From a virus, in the IMG/VR virus record IMGVR_UViG_3300046169_000093, positions 1 to 37,908 of that record: a DNA stretch of 37,908 nucleotides. One strand, given 5' to 3'. Positions within the stretch are counted from its first letter, which is position 1, and each line of letters starts with the position of its first letter. The notes beneath the pieces are model-generated. The model saw only the letters and a list, made by a program, of their open reading frames with translations, did no database searches and was not told where the DNA came from. Below, one piece after another: positions 9,476-33,856 of the stretch. Both the position numbers and the translations under genes were made by a program.

Positions 9476-9751
9476 TTACGCTAAAGTAGTTTCTTCTTCT
9501 TTTTCTTCCACTTCAGTAATTGATCCATCTTCTAAACTAATGTTTACAGATCCATATTTTTCTTCTAATGAAATAGTCATATCTTTCCACTCTGCTTGAA
9601 GTTCTGTATGTCTATTTGTTAATTGATTTTTAATCAATTCTTGATTACCAATATTCAACACTACAGTATTAATTTGGTTTTGAAGTGATTTAACTTCTTC
9701 TAATTCTTTAGCTGTAAGCTTTTTAGCTTTTTTTGTTTTAGACTTTGCCAT
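9476..9751 (-). CDS. Small coiled-coil protein (91 aa)
   Basis: A Lys-rich start (MAKSKTKKAKKLTAKE) leads into a predicted coiled coil at about residues 15-65 (heptad-like LEEVKSLQNQINTVV and NQLTNRHTELQAEWK), ending in an acidic tail with many Glu. Short coiled coils of this kind in marine phages often sit beside tail-fibre genes and may be assembly factors or fibre chaperones, but I recognise no family. The start is supported by the A-rich leader with AACCAAATAC just before the ATG. It follows the DUF7936-like pair and is closed by the AT-rich terminator. Confidence 0.65.
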   Translation of the reverse strand: MAKSKTKKAKKLTAKELEEVKSLQNQINTVVLNIGNQELIKNQLTNRHTELQAEWKDMTISLEEKYGSVNISLEDGSITEVEEKEEETTLA

Positions 9752-9818
9752 TGTATTTGGTTTTTTAAATTATAATTTATAATTCAAATATATAATCTTT
9801 TTTTTAATTTTCAAAATC

Positions 9819-15923: not shown

Positions 15924-16094
15924 TTATTTTTTCAAACTATTTATTTTTTGTTGAGCTAAATTCATATTTAAACTCCTACTAGTTTCTTCTTGTTTTGGTG
16001 CAACACAGGTTTTACAAATTGCGGCTCCATTTTCATCATATGTTTTTTGACATCCACATGTAAACCTTTTTCCACATTTAACACAATTACTCAT
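15924..16094 (-). CDS. Small zinc-ribbon protein (56 aa)
   Basis: A 56-residue open frame starting at the ATG 16092-16094. It has the Cys pattern C4-x2-C7, C13-x-C15, then C27-x2-C30, enough for one or two zinc sites, and ends in a Lys-rich helix. The start is supported by AACCAACAAATT directly before the ATG, the same leader found before the scaffold gene and others in this window. It fills the gap between the 179- and 192-residue genes. Its partner is unknown; in this setting a role in virion assembly or late regulation is possible. Confidence 0.7.
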   Translation of the reverse strand: MSNCVKCGKRFTCGCQKTYDENGAAICKTCVAPKQEETSRSLNMNLAQQKINSLKK

Positions 16095-16114
16095 AATTTG
16101 TTGGTTTAATTAAT

Positions 16115-19612: not shown

Positions 19613-20632
19613 TTATGAATTCCAATATGGTTCAACTTTATCCATCAAAGAAAGAAGCTGTTCTTCATTATCAGGTTTTTGTAAAAACTCTAATACTTCA
19701 GAAGGTCTTTTACCCATTCTTACACCACTGTCAATTGGTTCAATCCAACCACCAGCTTTTGTAGTAATAAATCTATAATAAAGACCATCTTTAATTAATG
19801 CTCTAATTTTTAATTCTTCCATTCCTAATTTTGAAACTTCTAAAAATTGAGAGGCTGCTCTTTTTTTGTTTGATTCAGCACCATGACCATTAATATATGT
19901 ATCCATATTTTCATACATAATATCATTAGGGGTATTCTTTGTATACTGTACACTATCTACATCAGCTACTTTAGCTACATACATTAATTTTGTAGTATTT
20001 TCATCAAACATCTTTTGCAATTCTACAAGAGCTTTATTTCTAATTTTAGTTAGTTCAGTTCTTGTTGTCAAACTTTCTTCTAGTGTATCCAAATAAAATT
20101 TTACACCTTTTGGGCTTGACTTTGCTTCTTTTAAAGATTTAGCTATTATAGAAAACCCTCCTGCTTTTATTGCATAAATTTTTATTTTGTCATAAGGATC
20201 TAATTCAGGATCTAAAAATACAGGATCATTACCACACTTAATTGAAATTTTATCCCAAAATTTAGAGTTGTCAGGACGCATAATTTGTAAGTCATTCCAA
20301 AATGTTGGGCTTTCTGGATCAACTACATTTGCTGCTAATTCTGCTTCTAGTTCTGCAACTACTTTTCTTATTTCTTTTATTTTAGCCTTTTTTTCTTTTG
20401 GAGCAAGCATTTTTACTTCTGGCGCAAATTCATTTAAACCAGTAACATATCTTTTAACTCCATTCATTTCAAGACATGCTAAAGACTCTTGATGAAACAC
20501 TCCGTCATGTAATGATAAACCATAGGTCTCTAACCCCATGTTTTCTTTATTTGGATTAAAGTATGGTCTTATAGCAATAGTGCTACTCTTTTTTGCTTGT
20601 TGATACTTTTCAACAATTGTGTAATCTTCCAT
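19613..20632 (-). CDS. Head-block protein of unknown function (339 aa)
   Basis: A 339-residue protein with a coiled-coil segment at about residues 75-100 (KEKKAKIKEIRKVVAELEAEL), a middle region rich in Asp/Pro turns ('NDPVFLDPELDPYDKIKIYAIKAGG') and a helical C-terminus ending 'LLSLMDKVEPYWNS'. No catalytic motif or signal is visible and I do not recognise the family. The leader AACCAAAAA before the ATG supports the start. It lies between the small 64-residue protein and the connector candidate. A virion or assembly role is inferred from order only. Confidence 0.6.
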   Translation of the reverse strand: MEDYTIVEKYQQAKKSSTIAIRPYFNPNKENMGLETYGLSLHDGVFHQESLACLEMNGVKRYVTGLNEFAPEVKMLAPKEKKAKIKEIRKVVAELEAELAANVVDPESPTFWNDLQIMRPDNSKFWDKISIKCGNDPVFLDPELDPYDKIKIYAIKAGGFSIIAKSLKEAKSSPKGVKFYLDTLEESLTTRTELTKIRNKALVELQKMFDENTTKLMYVAKVADVDSVQYTKNTPNDIMYENMDTYINGHGAESNKKRAASQFLEVSKLGMEELKIRALIKDGLYYRFITTKAGGWIEPIDSGVRMGKRPSEVLEFLQKPDNEEQLLSLMDKVEPYWNS

Positions 20633-20716
20633 TTTTTGGTTTTTAAAAATTAATAATTATTACTCTAGTCAAATAATGCACCGTAATGCACAATCTATTA
20701 TTACTAATATTTCTAA

Positions 20717-20736
20717 AGCAAGTTTTTACACTTGCT
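20717..20736 (-). terminator. Weak hairpin after the 64-residue gene
   Basis: AGCAAGT (20717-20723) and ACTTGCT (20730-20736) form a perfect 7-bp stem with a six-base loop. On the minus strand only a short T-rich stretch follows, so it may be a weak terminator or an RNA-processing site. It sits in the 122-base gap between the 64- and 339-residue genes. Confidence 0.5.
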
Positions 20737-20754
20737 AAAGTTTTTGACTATGTA

Positions 20755-20949
20755 TTAAACTACTACCATCAAAACACCCGCATTGTGATATATATCACCT
20801 TTAGCAAGTCCTGCAGCTTTAGCCGCAGCATCATCAGCATGATCTCTAGGGAGAACAAGCAATCCAAATGCTTTTGAAGAAAGTATTTTATCTACACTTG
20901 AGTTTGAAAACTCATATGTCTTGTTACCTTTTTTAATGTCTAGTGCCAT
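20755..20949 (-). CDS. Small conserved virion-block protein (64 aa)
   Basis: A 64-residue protein ending in a motif that I associate with short phage structural proteins: 'LPRDHADDAAAKAAGLAKGD', then Y-x-x-x-G-x-L and a run of hydrophobic residues. The same A-x-x-A-G-L-x-x-G-D-x-Y pattern occurs at the ends of many virion proteins. It lies directly after the capsid terminator, so it depends either on read-through of that terminator or on its own promoter. A capsid-associated role is plausible. Confidence 0.65.
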   Translation of the reverse strand: MALDIKKGNKTYEFSNSSVDKILSSKAFGLLVLPRDHADDAAAKAAGLAKGDIYHNAGVLMVVV

Positions 20950-20974
20950 GATAATCTATTTATAGGTTAAAAAT

Positions 20975-21007
20975 AAAAAGGGAGGAGGCATAAACCACCT
21001 CCCCTTT
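20975..21007 (-). terminator. Strong terminator after the capsid gene
   Basis: GGGAGG-A-GG (20980-20988) pairs with CC-A-CCTCCC (20995-21003) around a six-base loop. Five A residues on the plus strand give a T tract on the minus strand. It begins 12 bases beyond the capsid stop codon. Confidence 0.88.
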
Positions 21008-21018
21008 AATTATAGTTC

Positions 21019-22638
21019 TTAGAATGATCCTCCTGTTACAGGGTTTCTCATTACAATTTTTAGAACTTTGGTTGGATCTTTAACCCATATAGCTGGCATG
21101 GTCTGAGTCATATAAACTCTATATCCATTAAACTGACCAGTAGATGCAAACCCTTGAGTTCTTCCCATGTAGTCCATAGTACCATTTTGGTAGAACCACT
21201 TAAGTTGATTATCCCAAGAAAGTTTCAACAAGTGAATGTTGTCATTTCCTTCATCAGTTACATCAAAGATAATAAAGCTAAATGAACTTAGAGGTCTACC
21301 ATCAATTAATGGATTCTCAATGTCATTTGTATTTAAGTTATCAAATGCTGGATTCAATACAAACTTAACGTTAGCTAAGAAAGGAATAGTAAAGCTTGTG
21401 TAAGCAAAACCATAATCTAAATCCATACCAGAACCTTTAACAGCTCCTATATCAGATGCATTTTGAACTAAACCAGAACCATACACTTCATCAGCAATTG
21501 CTTTGTTGATTAGTTGCATACCACCAATACCTGTTTGTACAACAAGTGATCTTTGTGGGTCTGGCCCTTTAAACTCAACTTTACCTTGATAGAAGTTGTA
21601 AAGCTCAGACTTAAACATGTCAAGAGTAAATGAAGACTTGTTATATACTCTTTTGAAAGAGTTGTCTAACTGTGCCCATAAACCTACAGATAATCTAATA
21701 TCATCTGGTCCGTCTTGTTTAATTCTACCACCTTTACCCCACATTAGGTAAGTTTCAATATCCGTTGCAATTTTAGATAAGTGAGCTGCTTCCATATTTG
21801 TAATGAAAGTACGTGTAAGAGTTCCATTCTCAAATGCTTCTCTTGCACCCGCTTTACCCATAGTTGCTACTAAACCTTCAATACTTGGTACTGATGGATT
21901 GTTTGGATCATTATCAAAGTTTCTCCAGATTTCAGTAACAGGTACAGTACCATCAGCGTTTAATCCACCTTTGATCATTAAATCTGCTCTTGAAGAAATT
22001 GAATAGTGTACGTGTGCTTCTGCTCCTCCTACAAAGTTGTAGAATTCACGGAAACCAGAACCTGTTTCAATGTCAGAGAATCTTTCTCCATACTCACCTC
22101 TTGCAGAACCTTTTCTGAAGAATTTAGTACCTTTAGCTAAATACTTGTTATCCAAGATAGCCGCATTGTTGTTGTTAACTAATTGTACAGTGTATACAAA
22201 ACCGTCACCTGCTGGGATAATATCATCCGCAGTGATGTAAAGTTCTAATCCATTATACTTATCATAAGTAATAATGTCACCATGTCCAAAAGTTCTTTTG
22301 TTAATTTTGATCTTAAACGTTGTACCATCTACACCTTTGTTTGCGTTACCTGGTTCAATATCCGCTACTACGTAAGGAAGATCTTGTGCAATAGGAGTTT
22401 GCCACTTGTACTCACCTCTAGCGTTATCCACCATGATAGTATTCTTTCCACCAAAAGAAGCCATTTGATACAAAGGCATTTCTACCTTTTGGGTCATTGC
22501 CCAAAGATCAATTGGTCCCATATCCATAGGCTCGGAAGAACCAAGCATCTGGGTAAGGTGATACGAATCAACATGTGAACTTGCTTTATAGCTTGTATCA
22601 CGTAGGAAAATCCCATTATTTAAAACTGGAGTTGCCAT
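21019..22638 (-). CDS. Major capsid protein (HK97-fold, crAss-like type)
   Basis: A 539-residue protein placed directly after the portal and scaffold candidate, with its own terminator and no enzyme motif. These are the marks of a major capsid protein. The N-terminal arm (MATPVLNNGIFLRDTSYKAS) is followed by 'MPLYQMASFGGKNTIMVDNA', which resembles the start of the crAss-like capsid family as I recall it. The length also fits that family (about 490-540). Later segments include a 'DGRPLSSFSFIIFDV' strand and an ordered C-terminus 'IMRNPVTGGSF'. No delta-domain protease was seen next to it. The leader contains a repeated TTAATTGTTA (22651-22660 and 22670-22679). I am confident of the capsid role and less so of the exact family. 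Confidence 0.85.
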   Translation of the reverse strand: MATPVLNNGIFLRDTSYKASSHVDSYHLTQMLGSSEPMDMGPIDLWAMTQKVEMPLYQMASFGGKNTIMVDNARGEYKWQTPIAQDLPYVVADIEPGNANKGVDGTTFKIKINKRTFGHGDIITYDKYNGLELYITADDIIPAGDGFVYTVQLVNNNNAAILDNKYLAKGTKFFRKGSARGEYGERFSDIETGSGFREFYNFVGGAEAHVHYSISSRADLMIKGGLNADGTVPVTEIWRNFDNDPNNPSVPSIEGLVATMGKAGAREAFENGTLTRTFITNMEAAHLSKIATDIETYLMWGKGGRIKQDGPDDIRLSVGLWAQLDNSFKRVYNKSSFTLDMFKSELYNFYQGKVEFKGPDPQRSLVVQTGIGGMQLINKAIADEVYGSGLVQNASDIGAVKGSGMDLDYGFAYTSFTIPFLANVKFVLNPAFDNLNTNDIENPLIDGRPLSSFSFIIFDVTDEGNDNIHLLKLSWDNQLKWFYQNGTMDYMGRTQGFASTGQFNGYRVYMTQTMPAIWVKDPTKVLKIVMRNPVTGGSF

Positions 22639-22701
22639 AATTTGATTGTTTTAATTGTTAATATTAATGTTAATTGTTACTCTATTTATTTAATTACTTA
22701 A

Positions 22702-24000
22702 TTAAATTCGTTTAAATATGTTGTTAGCTCTTGGTATTTTTCTTTTAGCTGTTCTCTCTGCAACTGGTTCAGTATCTTTAACACCTAAAGATGAAGTTCC
22801 ACCAGCATTAGCTTGTTCAGTTTTAAGCTTTCTTACCGTTTGCTCTACAGATTTTTGAGCTCCTTGCTTCATGATTTTTGATTTATATCCGTCCGGGTCT
22901 TGCAATAACCATAAAGCTTCAGAAATCAAACTGTAGTTTGGTTCAACAAATTGATATTTTTCTAATAAGTGACCCAATAGATTTGTATTCTTCCCACTTA
23001 CAGATGGATATGCTGGTTGTACTAAACCATTATATAACATAGCTTGTGTTTTTTTATCTATTTTTAATTCACCCAATGAACCTTCTTTTAAGGTCTCATA
23101 TACATTTTTCATATATTGTTGAGATGCTTGTTCTTGCTGTTTTTTCTTAAGCTGTTGTTCTTCAAGCTTTCTTTGAACAATTTTTTCTTGCATCTTATCT
23201 AACTTAGGTTTAAACTTATTAGCTTGTTGTTCTAATTTTCCTAAGTCTTTCCATATCTCTATTTCCTCACCGATTTCTTCAGCAGTACCATATCCTGTTG
23301 CTGACAGATATTCAGTAATAATTCTTTCTTGGTCAGATTCATTTTTAACATCAAGACTCTTTTGTTCTTCAACTTGAGCTAATGTTGAAAATAAACCTTT
23401 CATATCTTGACCACCATCTGCAACATATCTTGCAGCAACTTGCAACTCTTTAGGTAAACTCTCAAAAAATTGTTTTGGAGTTTCTCTTCTAACTTGATTT
23501 GCTCTTTCCTCTAAATTAGCTTCAATTAACTCTTGCCAATCTTTTGCTGAATATTCTTCAAATGGTTTATCATCATCAAAAGGAACTATTTTATCATCTT
23601 TAATAAGTTTTTGAAATACATCACTTATTCCAGAAATCTTTTTTCTTCCTCTTGTTTCTTCTTTTTTATCTTCTCCTTCTTCATCATCTAATGAACCAAT
23701 AACATCATCAATGTTTACTTCTTCGTTTTTTTCAGATGCTTTTATTTCTTCTGGTTTTTCTTCTTCAGAAACTTCTTCCTTTTTTTCTTCTACTTTAGAA
23801 TTCAAATCATCTTTATCATCATTGTCAGGATCAGCAAATGACATATCTGCTTTTTCACCTGTACCAGAAAAAATATTTTTGTTTCCCTTTTCTTGGGGTA
23901 AAGTAACATCTCCGGCATTTGGTGCCGCATCAAAAATTTCATCTAAATTAATATCTAATGTTTCTACGTTACTATCCACAGTTTCAGTTTTTGTGCTCAT
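22702..24000 (-). CDS. Scaffold-type head assembly protein (432 aa)
   Basis: A 432-residue acidic and coiled-coil protein between portal and capsid, the usual place of a scaffold. Residues about 55-120 are very rich in Asp/Glu/Lys (DDKDDLNSKVEEKKEEVSEE and similar). Residues about 240-300 contain long Gln/Glu/Lys helices ('KLEQQANKFKPKLDKMQEKI', 'KKKQQEQASQQYMKN'). The C-terminus is basic (KRKIPRANNIFKRI), as expected for the capsid-binding end of many scaffolds. No protease motif is present, so processing would need another enzyme. The start is supported by AAAACCAACAAATATT immediately before the ATG. Confidence 0.75.
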   Translation of the reverse strand: MSTKTETVDSNVETLDINLDEIFDAAPNAGDVTLPQEKGNKNIFSGTGEKADMSFADPDNDDKDDLNSKVEEKKEEVSEEEKPEEIKASEKNEEVNIDDVIGSLDDEEGEDKKEETRGRKKISGISDVFQKLIKDDKIVPFDDDKPFEEYSAKDWQELIEANLEERANQVRRETPKQFFESLPKELQVAARYVADGGQDMKGLFSTLAQVEEQKSLDVKNESDQERIITEYLSATGYGTAEEIGEEIEIWKDLGKLEQQANKFKPKLDKMQEKIVQRKLEEQQLKKKQQEQASQQYMKNVYETLKEGSLGELKIDKKTQAMLYNGLVQPAYPSVSGKNTNLLGHLLEKYQFVEPNYSLISEALWLLQDPDGYKSKIMKQGAQKSVEQTVRKLKTEQANAGGTSSLGVKDTEPVAERTAKRKIPRANNIFKRI

Positions 24001-24047
24001 AATATTTGTTGGTTTTAATATTAATACTATCTATACATATATAATAT

Positions 24048-26894: not shown

Positions 26895-29087
26895 CTATTT
26901 AATATTTTTAAAACCAGATCTTCTAATTTTTGGTCCCATACCAGATCTATTACGTCCTAAATTTTTAAACGCACTGGTATACTTTAATTTACTTATTTTT
27001 TCTGAATTTACCAAAGAATCACTATCTGATTCACGTCTTTTAGCATAACCTCTATTAGATTGTTGTATTTTAACAAATGCAACTAATGCACCAAATGCCA
27101 CAAGTCTATCTACGTTAAGACCGGGATAATATGCAAGCATTTCTTTAATTAACATTTTATCTGGTATTCTTTCAACACCAAGAGTTTGTTTCATTACTGA
27201 TCCTTCATCATCTAAATCCTCATCAATCACCTCTCTAATGTATTCAATTGCATATGAAATTAAATGGCTTTTAAATAGAGTTCCTGTGTTCTTCCAACCA
27301 TACTCTTGATATACAGTTCTATTTGATCCGAGATCTTTTAAAAATAATATTTGTTGTTTAGGAACTAAATACTTTTGTTTTTTTCTTGCAATCATGTGTT
27401 GAATAAATAAAGATATGTTATTTTCAACAATTGTCCATGCATTATACCATTCAATAATTAATTCCAGTCTTTCGTGAGTTTTATTAATATCATCAAATCT
27501 ACCACACCAAGCAGCAACTATTTTATCTTTTTCTATAAATTGTTCAACTCCACCACCCTGCGTTTCTCTTGTTACTTCCACTGCATTTTTATATACAAAT
27601 ATGCTACACAATGAATCAGAAGTTGTTGTTTTACCTTCTGATACAGGGTCAATTGATGCATAGTAAGATCCAAAATCAGGACGCTTTGAAGCAGGTCTTT
27701 CCCAAACAACAACTGAACCTGTTTTATCATTAGCTTTTTTGTCAACTGGAAATTGTGAAATTGGTAATTTATTAGTTCTTTTAGCAATAATTCCCTCTTG
27801 TTCTCTTTCAAGTTCAATTAACTCATATGGATATTCTTTTTCTTCAATCTTTTTAAGTTGTTTAGAAAGTATACCCTGTGGAAATATAGAAGCTTTTCTG
27901 TATGCAAATGCCTCAGCAATATTTTTTGGTTTTTGTGATATTCTTAACTGATATTGTTCAGGTGATAAATCATTCTTCCACCTTTCTCTTTCAGCATTTA
28001 TTGCTTCAATTGCTTCTTCTACTTGAGAATTACCGTATTTGTCAATATAAGGTGGCATAGACCACTGTTCTGGTATAAATAGTCCTGCCATACCAATTGT
28101 TCCATCAGCATCCATTAGATTAGTTTCCACAGCGTAAATATCATTAGCGCTAGGATTCATAATCATATCCTTCAAAGGATTACATTGTTCAAGATCACCA
28201 ACAGATCCTGCAGCTATAAACATTCCAGTAGTAACCATACCAGATGACATTGCTGGACGCAAATACTCATAAGTCTCCATCATTTTTGGTGCAATACCTG
28301 CTTCTTCATGGAAAAAATAAGTACAAGGACCACCTACACCTGTTGTTGCGTTTTTTTCAAAAGATGCACCTTGTATCTTTGATTTCAAACCCCTTGATGT
28401 TTTTCTATTGCCAACTTTTACTTCAATTTGTTGTTGCCATAATAAAACCTTTTCAGGATTACTGGGTCTGTACCAAGCTGTATGCTCATTTAAAAATGTT
28501 TTGTATTCTTCTAAAAATTTCCAAGATCCCTTGTCATTAATGTAGTCTTTTAATGATGCACCAATCTTACATATGGAACCTTCTTCAAACCAATACTGAT
28601 TTATGATTTTTGCCATATGAAAATAAGATGATGCAATTTGTCGTTTCTTTAGTATAGCTGAATGTTGATTGCTCAACTCTGCAAGAAGTTCATATAAAGC
28701 CATATGATATTGTGCATCACGTACTTTTGCAAATCCATATTTTTTTTCTTCTTTATCAAAAATAGGAAGAAAATTTAACCACATATAATAGTCTCTGGTT
28801 AAATACCACTCTTTACCTTTACTTTTATATATTACACCGTTTTTACATTTATTTTTTTGATCATTCCAATAAGCTATATAATCTTTTGATCTAAACGGTG
28901 AGTTGCAATAATAACCTTCTTTATTAAACTTTGATGCTTGATCATTAAATCCCCAAGACATATGATCAAAACCATATTCACCAGGCTCACTAAAAATACT
29001 CTCAAGATATTCTCTAAATTCTAGATCAGTATCAAATGTAGTTTCTGTCCATTTATTATTTTCATATGTAGGTATAACTCTACTCAT
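26895..29087 (-). CDS. Terminase large subunit (TerL, 730 aa)
   Basis: This is the DNA-packaging ATPase and nuclease that docks on the portal. The ATPase P-loop region is reduced to 'KKRQIASSYF' (147-156), without the usual GK[S/T]. The acidic Walker B-like segment is 'YFFHEEAG' (257-264), and 'FIAAGSVGD' (290-298) fits the coupling motif. The nuclease domain shows the metal-binding acidic residues D480 ('YASIDPVSEG'), E555 ('WTIVENN') and D660 ('VDRLVAFGALVAF'). The gene overlaps the co-chaperonin gene upstream by eight bases. It ends with TAG. Length, motifs and its place before the portal make the call firm. No small terminase subunit was identified with certainty. Confidence 0.92.
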   Translation of the reverse strand: MSRVIPTYENNKWTETTFDTDLEFREYLESIFSEPGEYGFDHMSWGFNDQASKFNKEGYYCNSPFRSKDYIAYWNDQKNKCKNGVIYKSKGKEWYLTRDYYMWLNFLPIFDKEEKKYGFAKVRDAQYHMALYELLAELSNQHSAILKKRQIASSYFHMAKIINQYWFEEGSICKIGASLKDYINDKGSWKFLEEYKTFLNEHTAWYRPSNPEKVLLWQQQIEVKVGNRKTSRGLKSKIQGASFEKNATTGVGGPCTYFFHEEAGIAPKMMETYEYLRPAMSSGMVTTGMFIAAGSVGDLEQCNPLKDMIMNPSANDIYAVETNLMDADGTIGMAGLFIPEQWSMPPYIDKYGNSQVEEAIEAINAERERWKNDLSPEQYQLRISQKPKNIAEAFAYRKASIFPQGILSKQLKKIEEKEYPYELIELEREQEGIIAKRTNKLPISQFPVDKKANDKTGSVVVWERPASKRPDFGSYYASIDPVSEGKTTTSDSLCSIFVYKNAVEVTRETQGGGVEQFIEKDKIVAAWCGRFDDINKTHERLELIIEWYNAWTIVENNISLFIQHMIARKKQKYLVPKQQILFLKDLGSNRTVYQEYGWKNTGTLFKSHLISYAIEYIREVIDEDLDDEGSVMKQTLGVERIPDKMLIKEMLAYYPGLNVDRLVAFGALVAFVKIQQSNRGYAKRRESDSDSLVNSEKISKLKYTSAFKNLGRNRSGMGPKIRRSGFKNIK

Positions 29088-29355
29088 ATCTCAAAATTGC
29101 AAACACATCTCCTGCTTGAAGTAATAAGTGTTCTTCACCTTCATGTTGCATTGGTGTAGGCATTGCATGTTCAGCATATTGTACAACATCACCTATGTTT
29201 ATTTCTTTAACTTCTGCACCAACCCCAACAACAGCTCCTTTAAACTCTTTCTTTTGTGCAATTTCTGGGATAATAATACCACTTGCTGTTTTGGTTTCAG
29301 CTTTATGTCTTTTAATTAATAATCTTTTACCTACTGGTATGATAATTTGTTTCAT
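29080..29355 (-). CDS. GroES-like co-chaperonin (91 aa)
   Basis: The 91-residue protein has the GroES layout: an N-terminal strand with 'PVGKRLLIKR', a mobile loop with 'ETKTASGIIIPE' (20-31) holding the hydrophobic tripeptide that contacts GroEL, then 'FKGAVVGVGAEV ... INIGDVVQYAEH' and the closing strand 'LLQAGDVFAILRYE'. GroES-family proteins cap GroEL and are often needed to fold phage capsid proteins (T4 gp31 is the known case). Here the gene directly precedes and overlaps terminase, so it would be made with the head genes. Its start lies inside the end of the zinc-finger gene, in another frame. Confidence 0.9.
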   Translation of the reverse strand: MKQIIIPVGKRLLIKRHKAETKTASGIIIPEIAQKKEFKGAVVGVGAEVKEINIGDVVQYAEHAMPTPMQHEGEEHLLLQAGDVFAILRYE

Positions 29356-29500: not shown

Positions 29501-30018
29501 TACATTTGATCATATGCAAGACCTGCACCTCCACGCACAGAACTTTCTTGTTCTTGCTTCATATCACTAAATGCACCCTTATATGATTGTCTAATTGATT
29601 CAAATTTAGCAGCAGCATTAACCATAGAATTTATATTACCATCTCTTCCATGTTCAATTGCTGTAACTTCCATATATTTTGCTAATCTATCCAACATAGA
29701 TTTTATACCCACATATGCTCTATAAGTTGGTGTTTCATAAAGCTTTTTACACATGTCTAATGCATATCTAATTGTACCGTCCTCAACAGATTCTTCTAAA
29801 CCTATTTCTTCAATTATAATATCTTCTTTTTCATTTTCTGGTAAATTAAAAAAAGGATTTAAATCAGGATTTGGACAACTCATATAAAAAATATATTTGT
29901 ATACATCTAAGTGTGTATCCGGATATTCATCCATTACCTTTTTTAAAAAGGGTAAAGCATAACAATGCTCTGTTAAAATTAAACTGTTGTTTTGTATATC
30001 AAATAATTTTACTATCAT
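29500..30018 (-). CDS. Conserved pre-terminase protein, function unknown (172 aa)
   Basis: A 172-residue mostly helical acidic protein: 'SCPNPDLNPFFNLPENEKEDIIIEE' in the middle and 'YVGIKSMLDRLAKYMEVTAIEHG' toward the end. Similar short proteins occur just upstream of terminase in crAss-like phages, as I recall. Its position makes a small terminase subunit conceivable, but I see no DNA-binding motif and would not assign it. It overlaps the upstream gene by ATGA and the downstream zinc-finger gene by TAATG. Translation of this group is therefore probably coupled. Confidence 0.6.
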   Translation of the reverse strand: MIVKLFDIQNNSLILTEHCYALPFLKKVMDEYPDTHLDVYKYIFYMSCPNPDLNPFFNLPENEKEDIIIEEIGLEESVEDGTIRYALDMCKKLYETPTYRAYVGIKSMLDRLAKYMEVTAIEHGRDGNINSMVNAAAKFESIRQSYKGAFSDMKQEQESSVRGGAGLAYDQM

Positions 30019-30278
30019 AATGCATTAGGATTAAAATGATTTTCCATTTCTTTTTTAAAATCTTTATAACTTATTTCTAAGTATAATGGAATTTGTTGAC
30101 CATGTACAACTACTTCTACGTGGCTATCCATAAACTTTTCTGTTCCCGAATGATAGTATTCTCTAAAAAATATTACTTTGCCTAAATCAATCATAACTTT
30201 TGTTTTTTCAAACCTAAAGTCTGTTGGTACTTTAGAATGTTTAGATTGAACCGCTACTGTTGTTATAAACTCTTTCAT
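30015..30278 (-). CDS. Small unknown protein (87 aa)
   Basis: An 87-residue protein predicted to be mainly beta ('TKVMIDLGKVIFFREYYH', 'DSHVEVVVHGQQIPLYLEISY') with a helical end. I recognise no family. It starts at 30276-30278 with AACCAATAATT just before the ATG, although those bases also encode the end of the nuclease gene. Its stop overlaps the next start as ATGA. The dense overlaps suggest one transcript from the DNA-binding genes through to terminase. Confidence 0.55.
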   Translation of the reverse strand: MKEFITTVAVQSKHSKVPTDFRFEKTKVMIDLGKVIFFREYYHSGTEKFMDSHVEVVVHGQQIPLYLEISYKDFKKEMENHFNPNAL

Positions 30279-30280
30279 AA

Positions 30281-31096
30281 TTATTGGTTATCTTTTAACC
30301 ACATCATAATAGATATTACTTCATCTTTTAAATATGGTAATTCATAAATTTTAACTTCTTTAATTACAGGTTCTCCATTTATGTGTTCATTGATTGGATA
30401 ACCATTCTTATCTTCTCCAACTTGTTTAAATTTAACATGTTGAATTACAAGCTTACCTATTTTAAGTTTTGGATTGTGCTTTTTAATAATATACGCATAA
30501 ATACTCAGTTGTAAGTTATAATGATTAAGATTACAATCATCAAGGTGACTAATTGGTTTATACATTTTTTTAGTTATACCTTCCCAATTTGTAAACCCTT
30601 TTTCTTTTATTTCTTTATTAGTTTTATAATCTGTTATATTTATATATCCATTTACAATCTCAACTAAATCTGCTTGTCCGCAAACACCAAGAGATTTTAA
30701 ATAAACTAAATGTTCTGGATATATACCTTCTTCTAGTTTTTGAACTGGTGCAACTTTTACACCTGTTTCATCATCATTCAATGGTCTTACAACAGGCAAC
30801 TCAACACCATATCTTGACAATGTATTTAAATCACATATATCAGCTTCACGTTGATCATGATAAAAATTACCAAGTTTTATAGCTCTTTCTGTTTCACTAT
30901 CCCATGCAGCAAGTATCTCTTTTGGTGTCATGCCATACCATTTAGATCTTTTATTTTTAGATGATTTTTTGGCTTGTCCTTCTCTATCAAACTTTGGTTT
31001 AAATTTACCAACTAAAGATGTAACGCTTGTCCAATTAATTTCATCCTGATCAATGCTTTCATAAACATGTCCTTCTTCTTTAAATATAATTGCCAT
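30281..31096 (-). CDS. PD-(D/E)XK nuclease, RecB/Cas4-like (271 aa)
   Basis: Numbering from the ATG at 31096, the protein shows the RecB-type nuclease core: 'GNFYHDQREAD' (76-86, the G-x-x-x-H and E residues), 'CGQADLVEI' (139-147, D143), 'ITDYKTNK' (154-161, D156 and K158) and 'YNLQLSIYAYI' (193-203, Q196). These residues coordinate the metal and cut DNA, usually processively from ends. A frame open to 31147 exists, but the ATG at 31096 overlaps the stop of the previous gene as TAATG and matches the start of the conserved part, so I prefer it. Such a nuclease is often found in the head-packaging block of crAss-like phages. Confidence 0.85.
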   Translation of the reverse strand: MAIIFKEEGHVYESIDQDEINWTSVTSLVGKFKPKFDREGQAKKSSKNKRSKWYGMTPKEILAAWDSETERAIKLGNFYHDQREADICDLNTLSRYGVELPVVRPLNDDETGVKVAPVQKLEEGIYPEHLVYLKSLGVCGQADLVEIVNGYINITDYKTNKEIKEKGFTNWEGITKKMYKPISHLDDCNLNHYNLQLSIYAYIIKKHNPKLKIGKLVIQHVKFKQVGEDKNGYPINEHINGEPVIKEVKIYELPYLKDEVISIMMWLKDNQ

Positions 31097-33274: not shown

Positions 33275-33577
33275 TTACTCTACTTTTGCAGCAGCTTTTT
33301 CCATAGCTTGTTTAAACTCTTTTTCTTCATCAGAAGGTCCTTCACTTGCATTTTGTTGAGCTGTAGCTTGAGCCATAAAAATTTGTGCTTGTAATCTCTC
33401 AGCTCTAGCCTTATCTATAGTAGCAAGCAACTCTTCATATTCAGCTTGAATAGTTAAATGTGGAATATTATCTTTGTAAAATTTTGTAATTTCTTCTCTG
33501 CGTTCTTTAAGTTGTTCTTCTGAAAGCTGAGGATCTGTGTCTTGTAAATCAGAGTTTACTTTTTTTAATTTTGCCAT
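33275..33577 (-). CDS. Small coiled-coil protein (100 aa)
   Basis: A 100-residue, highly helical protein: 'LSEEQLKERREEITKFYKDNIPHL' followed by 'EYEELLATIDKARAERLQAQIFMA' and an Ala/Gln/Glu-rich tail. Similar short coiled coils are common in flavobacterial phages next to lysis or tail genes; the function is unknown to me. It lies one base upstream of the endolysin, so the two are probably co-translated. The leader AATCAACAAA before the ATG is close to the AACCAA-type leaders found elsewhere in the window. Confidence 0.65.
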   Translation of the reverse strand: MAKLKKVNSDLQDTDPQLSEEQLKERREEITKFYKDNIPHLTIQAEYEELLATIDKARAERLQAQIFMAQATAQQNASEGPSDEEKEFKQAMEKAAAKVE

Positions 33578-33670
33578 TTTGTTGATTTTAAAATTTAACT
33601 TAATAACAAATATATAAAAATAGTTTAAACTTTAAAAGTATTTTTATATATTTAACCAATAAATATTAAA

Positions 33671-33856
33671 ATGAAATATCTTAAATCTGTTAACTCATTT
33701 ATTGATGAATCAACATGCACAGTTTATGTATGTATAAATAATTATTGTGGTGATACAGAAGAAGGTGTGCATTTAAAAGACATGAACGAAGAATGGTGGG
33801 CTAAATTAGATCAATCAGATATGGCAAGAATAGATATAAAAGGAGGATTATTTTAA
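33671..33856 (+). CDS. Small plus-strand protein (61 aa), the only likely gene on this strand
   Basis: A 61-residue frame in the gap between two minus-strand genes. It has coherent composition ('STCTVYVCINNYCGDTEEG', 'LKDMNEEWWAKLDQ') rather than the pattern of a shadow frame. Its ATG is preceded by AACCAATAAATATTAAA, nearly the leader of the scaffold gene. Its TAA (33854-33856) overlaps the TAA of the convergent minus-strand gene in the palindrome TTAA. I recognise no family; the two Trp and acidic patch suggest a small folded binding protein. A promoter upstream was not clear. It could regulate the convergent gene through antisense transcription. Confidence 0.6.
   Translation: MKYLKSVNSFIDESTCTVYVCINNYCGDTEEGVHLKDMNEEWWAKLDQSDMARIDIKGGLF

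Follow-up and report, generated by a model that had tools for sequence, protein, structure and literature searches.

A gene-selective AACCAA leader in a crAss-like phage as a candidate translation-initiation element

The AACCAA leader that precedes a few genes of a crAss-like phage is most likely a gene-specific translation-initiation element. In our main reading, to which we give a probability of about 0.45, AAAACCAA belongs to the mRNA of a small group of phage genes, at their initiation region, where it would act as an enhancer; the scaffold-position gene and the gene behind the capsid gene (gene X) form the core of this group.

The window, i.e. the whole stretch analysed, is an IMG/VR virus contig of 37,908 bases from a crAss-like phage, of which it carries the late module. 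PHROG matches were obtained for its terminase, portal and capsid genes. For the terminase, GenBank matches come from crAss-like, Flavobacterium and Cellulophaga phages and are all below 60% identity (best about 25–27%); IMG/VR holds at least 597 terminase relatives, of which the best 80 loci were retained. Genes were called mechanically throughout, by the longest-ATG rule. The label "scaffold" refers to gene position alone, in the window and in the deep relatives, and the gene of the window has no PHROG or Pfam family. In the relatives TANNTTTG, which we take to be the Bacteroidota -7 box, is in excess before gapped genes (39 against 14.0 +/- 3.4 expected), and from this excess we infer that the host is a member of the Bacteroidota.

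Occurrence of the leader in the window and its close relatives

A sequence-only reading of the window had pointed to near-identical leaders before three start codons. AACCAAYAAAT is indeed present in exact form before the zinc-ribbon gene, the scaffold-position gene and a plus-strand ORF (Table 1), and the AACCAA variants reported before 9751, 20632 and 30278 are all there. With one mismatch allowed, AACCAAYAAAT has 18 matches in the window for 6.1 expected, a number reached in 0 of 100 shuffles. The search of upstream regions called for by that reading found AACCAA between -26 and -1 of 7 of the 43 starts, against 2.39 +/- 1.26 in within-leader dinucleotide shuffles (7 reached in 1 of 1000); the strand background alone predicts 0.76 such starts. 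The leader observation is real, and chance or AT-rich background as its source is rejected on the shuffles and permutations. The absence of Shine-Dalgarno sites was borne out as well: similar words precede 1 of the 43 starts, for 1.35 in shuffles, no more often than by chance, which sets these leaders outside the Shine-Dalgarno class.

Across 13 relatives the position of AACCAA forms a sharp peak at -15 to -6 on the sense strand. Among the 6-mers tested between -22 and -1 (family-weighted; words with at least 2 weighted occurrences) it ranks first, with a z of 7.6. AAACCA and AAAACC, which overlap it, rise alongside, CAACAA does so somewhat, and most other permutations of AAAACC stay near expectation.

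Table 1. Leader copies and associated features of the window.
Feature	Position	Strand	Basis or carriage in relatives
AACCAA before 91-aa gene 9476-9751	9757..9762	-	9/23 distinct leaders, plus 3 AATCAA
AACCAACAAAT before 56-aa zinc-ribbon gene (15924-16094)	16096..16106	-	9/9 relatives
Gene X, crAss001 gp33 homologue	19613..20632	-	hhalign to crAss001 gp33 and relatives
AACCAA, gene X (post-capsid) leader	20636..20641	-	AACCA in 51/51 close-relative leaders
Predicted conserved, covarying RNA structure, closing stem and three hairpins	20660..20754	-	X leader, upstream of AACCAA
Major capsid protein gene	21019-22638	-	PHROG 11589, E 1.3e-31
AATCAA variant before major capsid gene	22642..22647	-	40/68 distinct leaders AATCAA, 0/68 AACCAA
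Scaffold-position gene, flanked by the portal and capsid genes	22702-24000	-	synteny
AACCAACAAAT, scaffold-position gene leader	24004..24014	-	41/41 distinct leaders with AACCAA
Phage GroES	29080-29355	-	Cpn10 match, E 1.2e-16
AACCAA before gene 30015-30278	30284..30289	-	overlaps previous CDS end (Asn-Gln-stop)
AATCAA variant before gene 33275-33577	33582..33587	-	6/34 AACCAA, 2/34 AATCAA
AACCAATAAAT before plus-strand 61-aa ORF (33671-33856)	33654..33664	+	weakest example

Carriage was counted on distinct orthologue leaders among close relatives, as relatedness inflates raw counts. Besides the cases of Table 1, AACCA is found in 12 of 21 distinct leaders of gene 30278 and in 18 of 45 of phage GroES; the leaders of gene 33577 have AAAACCAA in some relatives, 3' of TANNTTTG. 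The motif of the zinc-ribbon gene is contained in a 20-nt gap behind the previous stop codon (10–21 nt in relatives). The upstream neighbour of GroES differs among relatives, and AAACCAA or AAATCAA is seen in these differing contexts. A copy before 31096 falls within a coding region and lacks conservation, being present in 1 of 11 family members. AACCAA occurs in none of the distinct portal (0/57) or terminase (0/48) leaders of close relatives, and the count is zero for most other genes. An EM search for a signal present in all genes returned mainly stop-codon-like TAA and -7-like words, and no AACCAA. AACCAA is thus gene-specific and not a general initiation signal: the proposal of a phage translation-start signal holds in that the word is tied to starts and conserved in relatives, but not in its generality, since most genes never carry it.

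The plus-strand copy adjoins a -7-like box, TATATTTA, and for this reason may lie partly upstream of the transcript. The 61-aa ORF behind it was found at one other locus only, where 4 codons differ synonymously and 6 non-synonymously. This copy had been advanced against a shared ancestry within one operon; it is the weakest one, and the sharing of the motif by non-homologous genes and its persistence at deep divergence speak more strongly against such ancestry. Two promoter-like blocks that are almost identical, AAACTATTTTTATATATTTG on one strand and AAAGTATTTTTATATATTTA on the other, also lie in the divergent intergenic region (33578-33670).

The leader is kept before scaffold and X across deep divergence

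A capsid-profile search gave further distant groups, including phi17:2-like phages. In this deep clade the capsids are about 20–29% identical to that of the window (29% for Lbo-JY46, 20% in the alignment for phi17:2). In the Lbo-JY46 group (L479-L486) AACCAA precedes the scaffold gene in 8 of 8 loci and the post-capsid gene, homologous to X of the window (hhalign 99.3%), in 7 of 8. Lbo-JY46 (L122, PP438436) is described as a Leptolyngbya phage; some of its leaders have Bacteroidota-type TANNTTTG boxes and its relatives are crAss-like, so that its cyanobacterial host may be a mixed-culture artefact.

The counts on the deep clade, in which similar leaders were collapsed, are the safest of the analysis. 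AACCAA is present in 17 of 21 distinct leaders of X (4.76 +/- 1.83 in shuffles, maximum 10 in 500) and in 11 of 20 of scaffold (2.60 +/- 1.42, maximum 8). The corresponding values are 0/23 for portal, 1/22 for capsid and 0/25 for Y, the gene after X. The association of AACCAA with scaffold and X is therefore shown to be kept across deep divergence.

AACCAA stands before X in nearly all deep neighbourhoods examined and is repeated in L540 and in the L533-L539 group. In L540 three copies overlap; they directly follow a hairpin, and the 49-nt gap that contains them shows no promoter box. The word is missing before X in L529, L532 and L535; at L529:6626 and L532:6751 the X leaders are GA-rich and (GAAAAA)n-like where relatives carry AACCAA. 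The exact word is missing before scaffold in phi17:2-like phages, and before both scaffold and the post-capsid gene in phi14:2, FpV4, crAss001 and cr1_1. Over all leaders, crAss001, FpV4 and phi14:2 display no enrichment, cr1_1 has 4 AACCAA leaders for 1.1 expected and phi17:2 has 6 for 2.1. Both phi14:2 and phi17:2 infect Cellulophaga baltica.

Gene X is homologous to gp33 of crAss001, a protein whose annotation includes a double-stranded DNA-binding domain. That gp33 goes unmentioned in the main text of the crAss001 structure paper is no proof of its absence from virions. The AlphaFold model of X (pLDDT 80.5) has weak Foldseek matches in the PDB, all with E >0.1, the best being RecA chains (E 0.27, about 60 aligned residues); further matches are uncharacterised proteins from crAss-like phages and from other phages of Bacteroidota.

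The RNA structure predicted in the X leader comprises, in the window group, 27 pairs with 96.9% of cells paired and 13 pairs changed on both sides. Its covariation score is 0.225 against 0.093 when shuffled (0 of 500), a control that relatedness can inflate, and it collapses with slid partners, a control that preserves relatedness. There is at most one copy per genome, with a convincing score only at this site in that group. Rfam gives no match above threshold and the predicted structure is new. Most deep relatives examined have a terminator-like hairpin in the X gap instead. In the window, a terminator-like hairpin with a T-run is located at 20950-21018 (-), between the capsid gene and 20755-20949, and is kept in relatives.

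Selection and a probable role on the mRNA

The AAACCAA columns of the scaffold leader show 0 Fitch changes on a tree of 41 taxa, on which third codon positions average 7.5 changes and 4.9% of these positions have none. The column count of the X leader was left out of this test because MAFFT gaps are badly placed there. Where the motif of gene 30278 overlaps coding sequence, 12 of 17 orthologues use AAC for the Asn, a codon found in 18.75% of Asn-CAA pairs across the genome (naive p 4.5e-6, overstated since the sequences are related). These patterns of substitution and codon use indicate that AACCAA is under selection.

The spacing from CC to ATG is variable, mostly -4 to -12, the motif lying roughly 4–18 nt before the ATG, and the distance from motif to promoter box is also variable. 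The scaffold, MCP and X leaders contain 0–1% G and have weak predicted folding. Because the motif can stand only 10–21 nt behind the previous stop codon, at a variable distance from the ATG, a translational role on the mRNA appears a better fit than a promoter.

Mode of action and alternative readings

In the main reading AAAACCAA would act as a gene-specific enhancer recruiting the ribosome. The unstructured, A/C-rich stretch with almost no G would be kept close to the 30S platform or to bS1, in a manner akin to the A-rich -14 to -11 region of Flavobacterium mRNAs, and initiation would be raised on chosen morphogenesis genes in hosts that do without Shine-Dalgarno pairing. No phage-encoded bS21, which could alter initiation, was found in 17 partial records; one could exist elsewhere. 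Baez et al. 2019 (PMC6847099) showed for Flavobacterium johnsoniae that initiation increases with adenines at -13/-12, -6 and -3, and they discuss bS1 as a factor that might read the A-rich region. The phage leaders resemble this A-rich, Kozak-like region (PMC6847099) in having no Shine-Dalgarno site and an A-rich, little-structured leader with an expected effect on initiation. They differ from it in that the F. johnsoniae feature is a compositional bias across all genes, with maxima at -12/-13, -6 and -3 (PMC6847099), whereas the phage has a defined AAAACCAA word with variable spacing before selected genes. Base profiles and folding energies likewise place the A-rich -14 to -11 region and the weak structure of the phage leaders with the Bacteroidota A-rich initiation class, from which they depart in that AACCAA is confined to few genes. 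On the simplest reading, AAAACCAA would belong to this class as a strong and gene-specific case.

Several observations speak against an enhancer. An A-rich leader would not require so specific a feature as the invariant CC. The capsid gene, for which high output is expected, has only AATCAA in the window group and almost no motif elsewhere. In addition, phi14:2 has no AACCAA before X, and L529 and L532 have GA-rich leaders there. A specific RNA-binding regulator is conceivable in view of the CC core, of the restriction to scaffold and X over deep divergence, and of the contrast between phi14:2 and phi17:2.

Phages are known to use translational operators, as for the MS2 coat protein and T4 RegA, and the P22 scaffold is autoregulated post-transcriptionally. 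AACCAA could be such an operator, on which a phage or host RNA-binding protein, possibly X itself by feedback, coordinates, represses or times scaffold, X and other genes; we regard this as tenable though somewhat unlikely. The invariance of CC in the scaffold leader is in its favour, as are the persistence of the motif before the same two genes at deep divergence with MCP, portal and Y lacking it, its repetition (e.g. in L540), the lack of a clear enrichment in the sampled host genes, the difference between two phages of one host species, and the DNA-binding annotation of the crAss001 homologue of X with the weak RecA-chain matches of X itself. A short gene-selective element in the initiation region, with a scaffold gene among the targets, is common to AACCAA and the known operators, but no operator hairpin lies at AACCAA itself and its repressor is putative. 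Against an operator, X is also present in lineages without AACCAA, and the motif comes and goes before GroES and other genes in a sporadic way that resembles tuning of strength. A literature search on scaffold autoregulation returned nothing relevant. Unlikely as a whole is the more specific version, a translational regulon of the phage lineage in which a phage-encoded reader would have coordinated scaffold and X, the latter with its new structured leader, across deep crAss-like divergence through AAAACCAA as a sequence-specific single-stranded RNA operator.

That AACCAA is merely a generic A-rich, G-poor Bacteroidota leader is improbable, and we disfavour it. An A-rich bias at -14 to -11 does exist in 22 Flavobacteriia ribosomal-cluster loci, without an AACCAA peak, and such leaders are found in other phages. 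In 969 genes of four Bacteroidota genomes, which may not include the true host, AACCAA is in weak excess (22 against 15.1 +/- 2.7) and AAAACCAA is found 4 times for 3.1 expected. AACCAA is thus not clearly enriched in the sampled Bacteroidota genes and is probably not a simple host signal. Composition-preserving shuffles and permutations fail to reproduce the AACCAA signal of the phages, and the CC of the scaffold leader never changes. The omega leader of tobamoviruses is also G-free, CAA-rich, single-stranded and at times repeated; here the context is a bacterial phage, the effect would be gene-specific and the core is CC.

A promoter or transcription-start element is very improbable. TANNTTTG boxes do lie upstream of several carriers, and the copy at 33654 adjoins a -7-like box, but apart from this copy the motif is not part of the -7/-33 boxes, its position tracks the ATG and not the box, and it occurs in short intra-operon gaps and in the box-free gap of L540. 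Pairing with 16S rRNA, suggested in the sequence-only reading, or with an sRNA is scarcely credible: the C-containing core could match UUGGUU, but TTGGTT is absent from four Flavobacteriia 16S genes, which refutes the idea for those four. The epsilon-type enhancer of T7 gene 10, for which 16S pairing has been proposed, also lies upstream of a phage structural gene; none of the four 16S genes tested here offers a counterpart to its pairing.

Read as a gene-specific initiation element, AACCAA bears on the question of how start codons are chosen in Bacteroidota without Shine-Dalgarno pairing. A short word kept before the same genes in phages whose capsids are about 20–29% identical is a directly testable signal. 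The leader may offer a handle for Bacteroidota expression parts and a possible point of post-transcriptional control in crAss-like phages.
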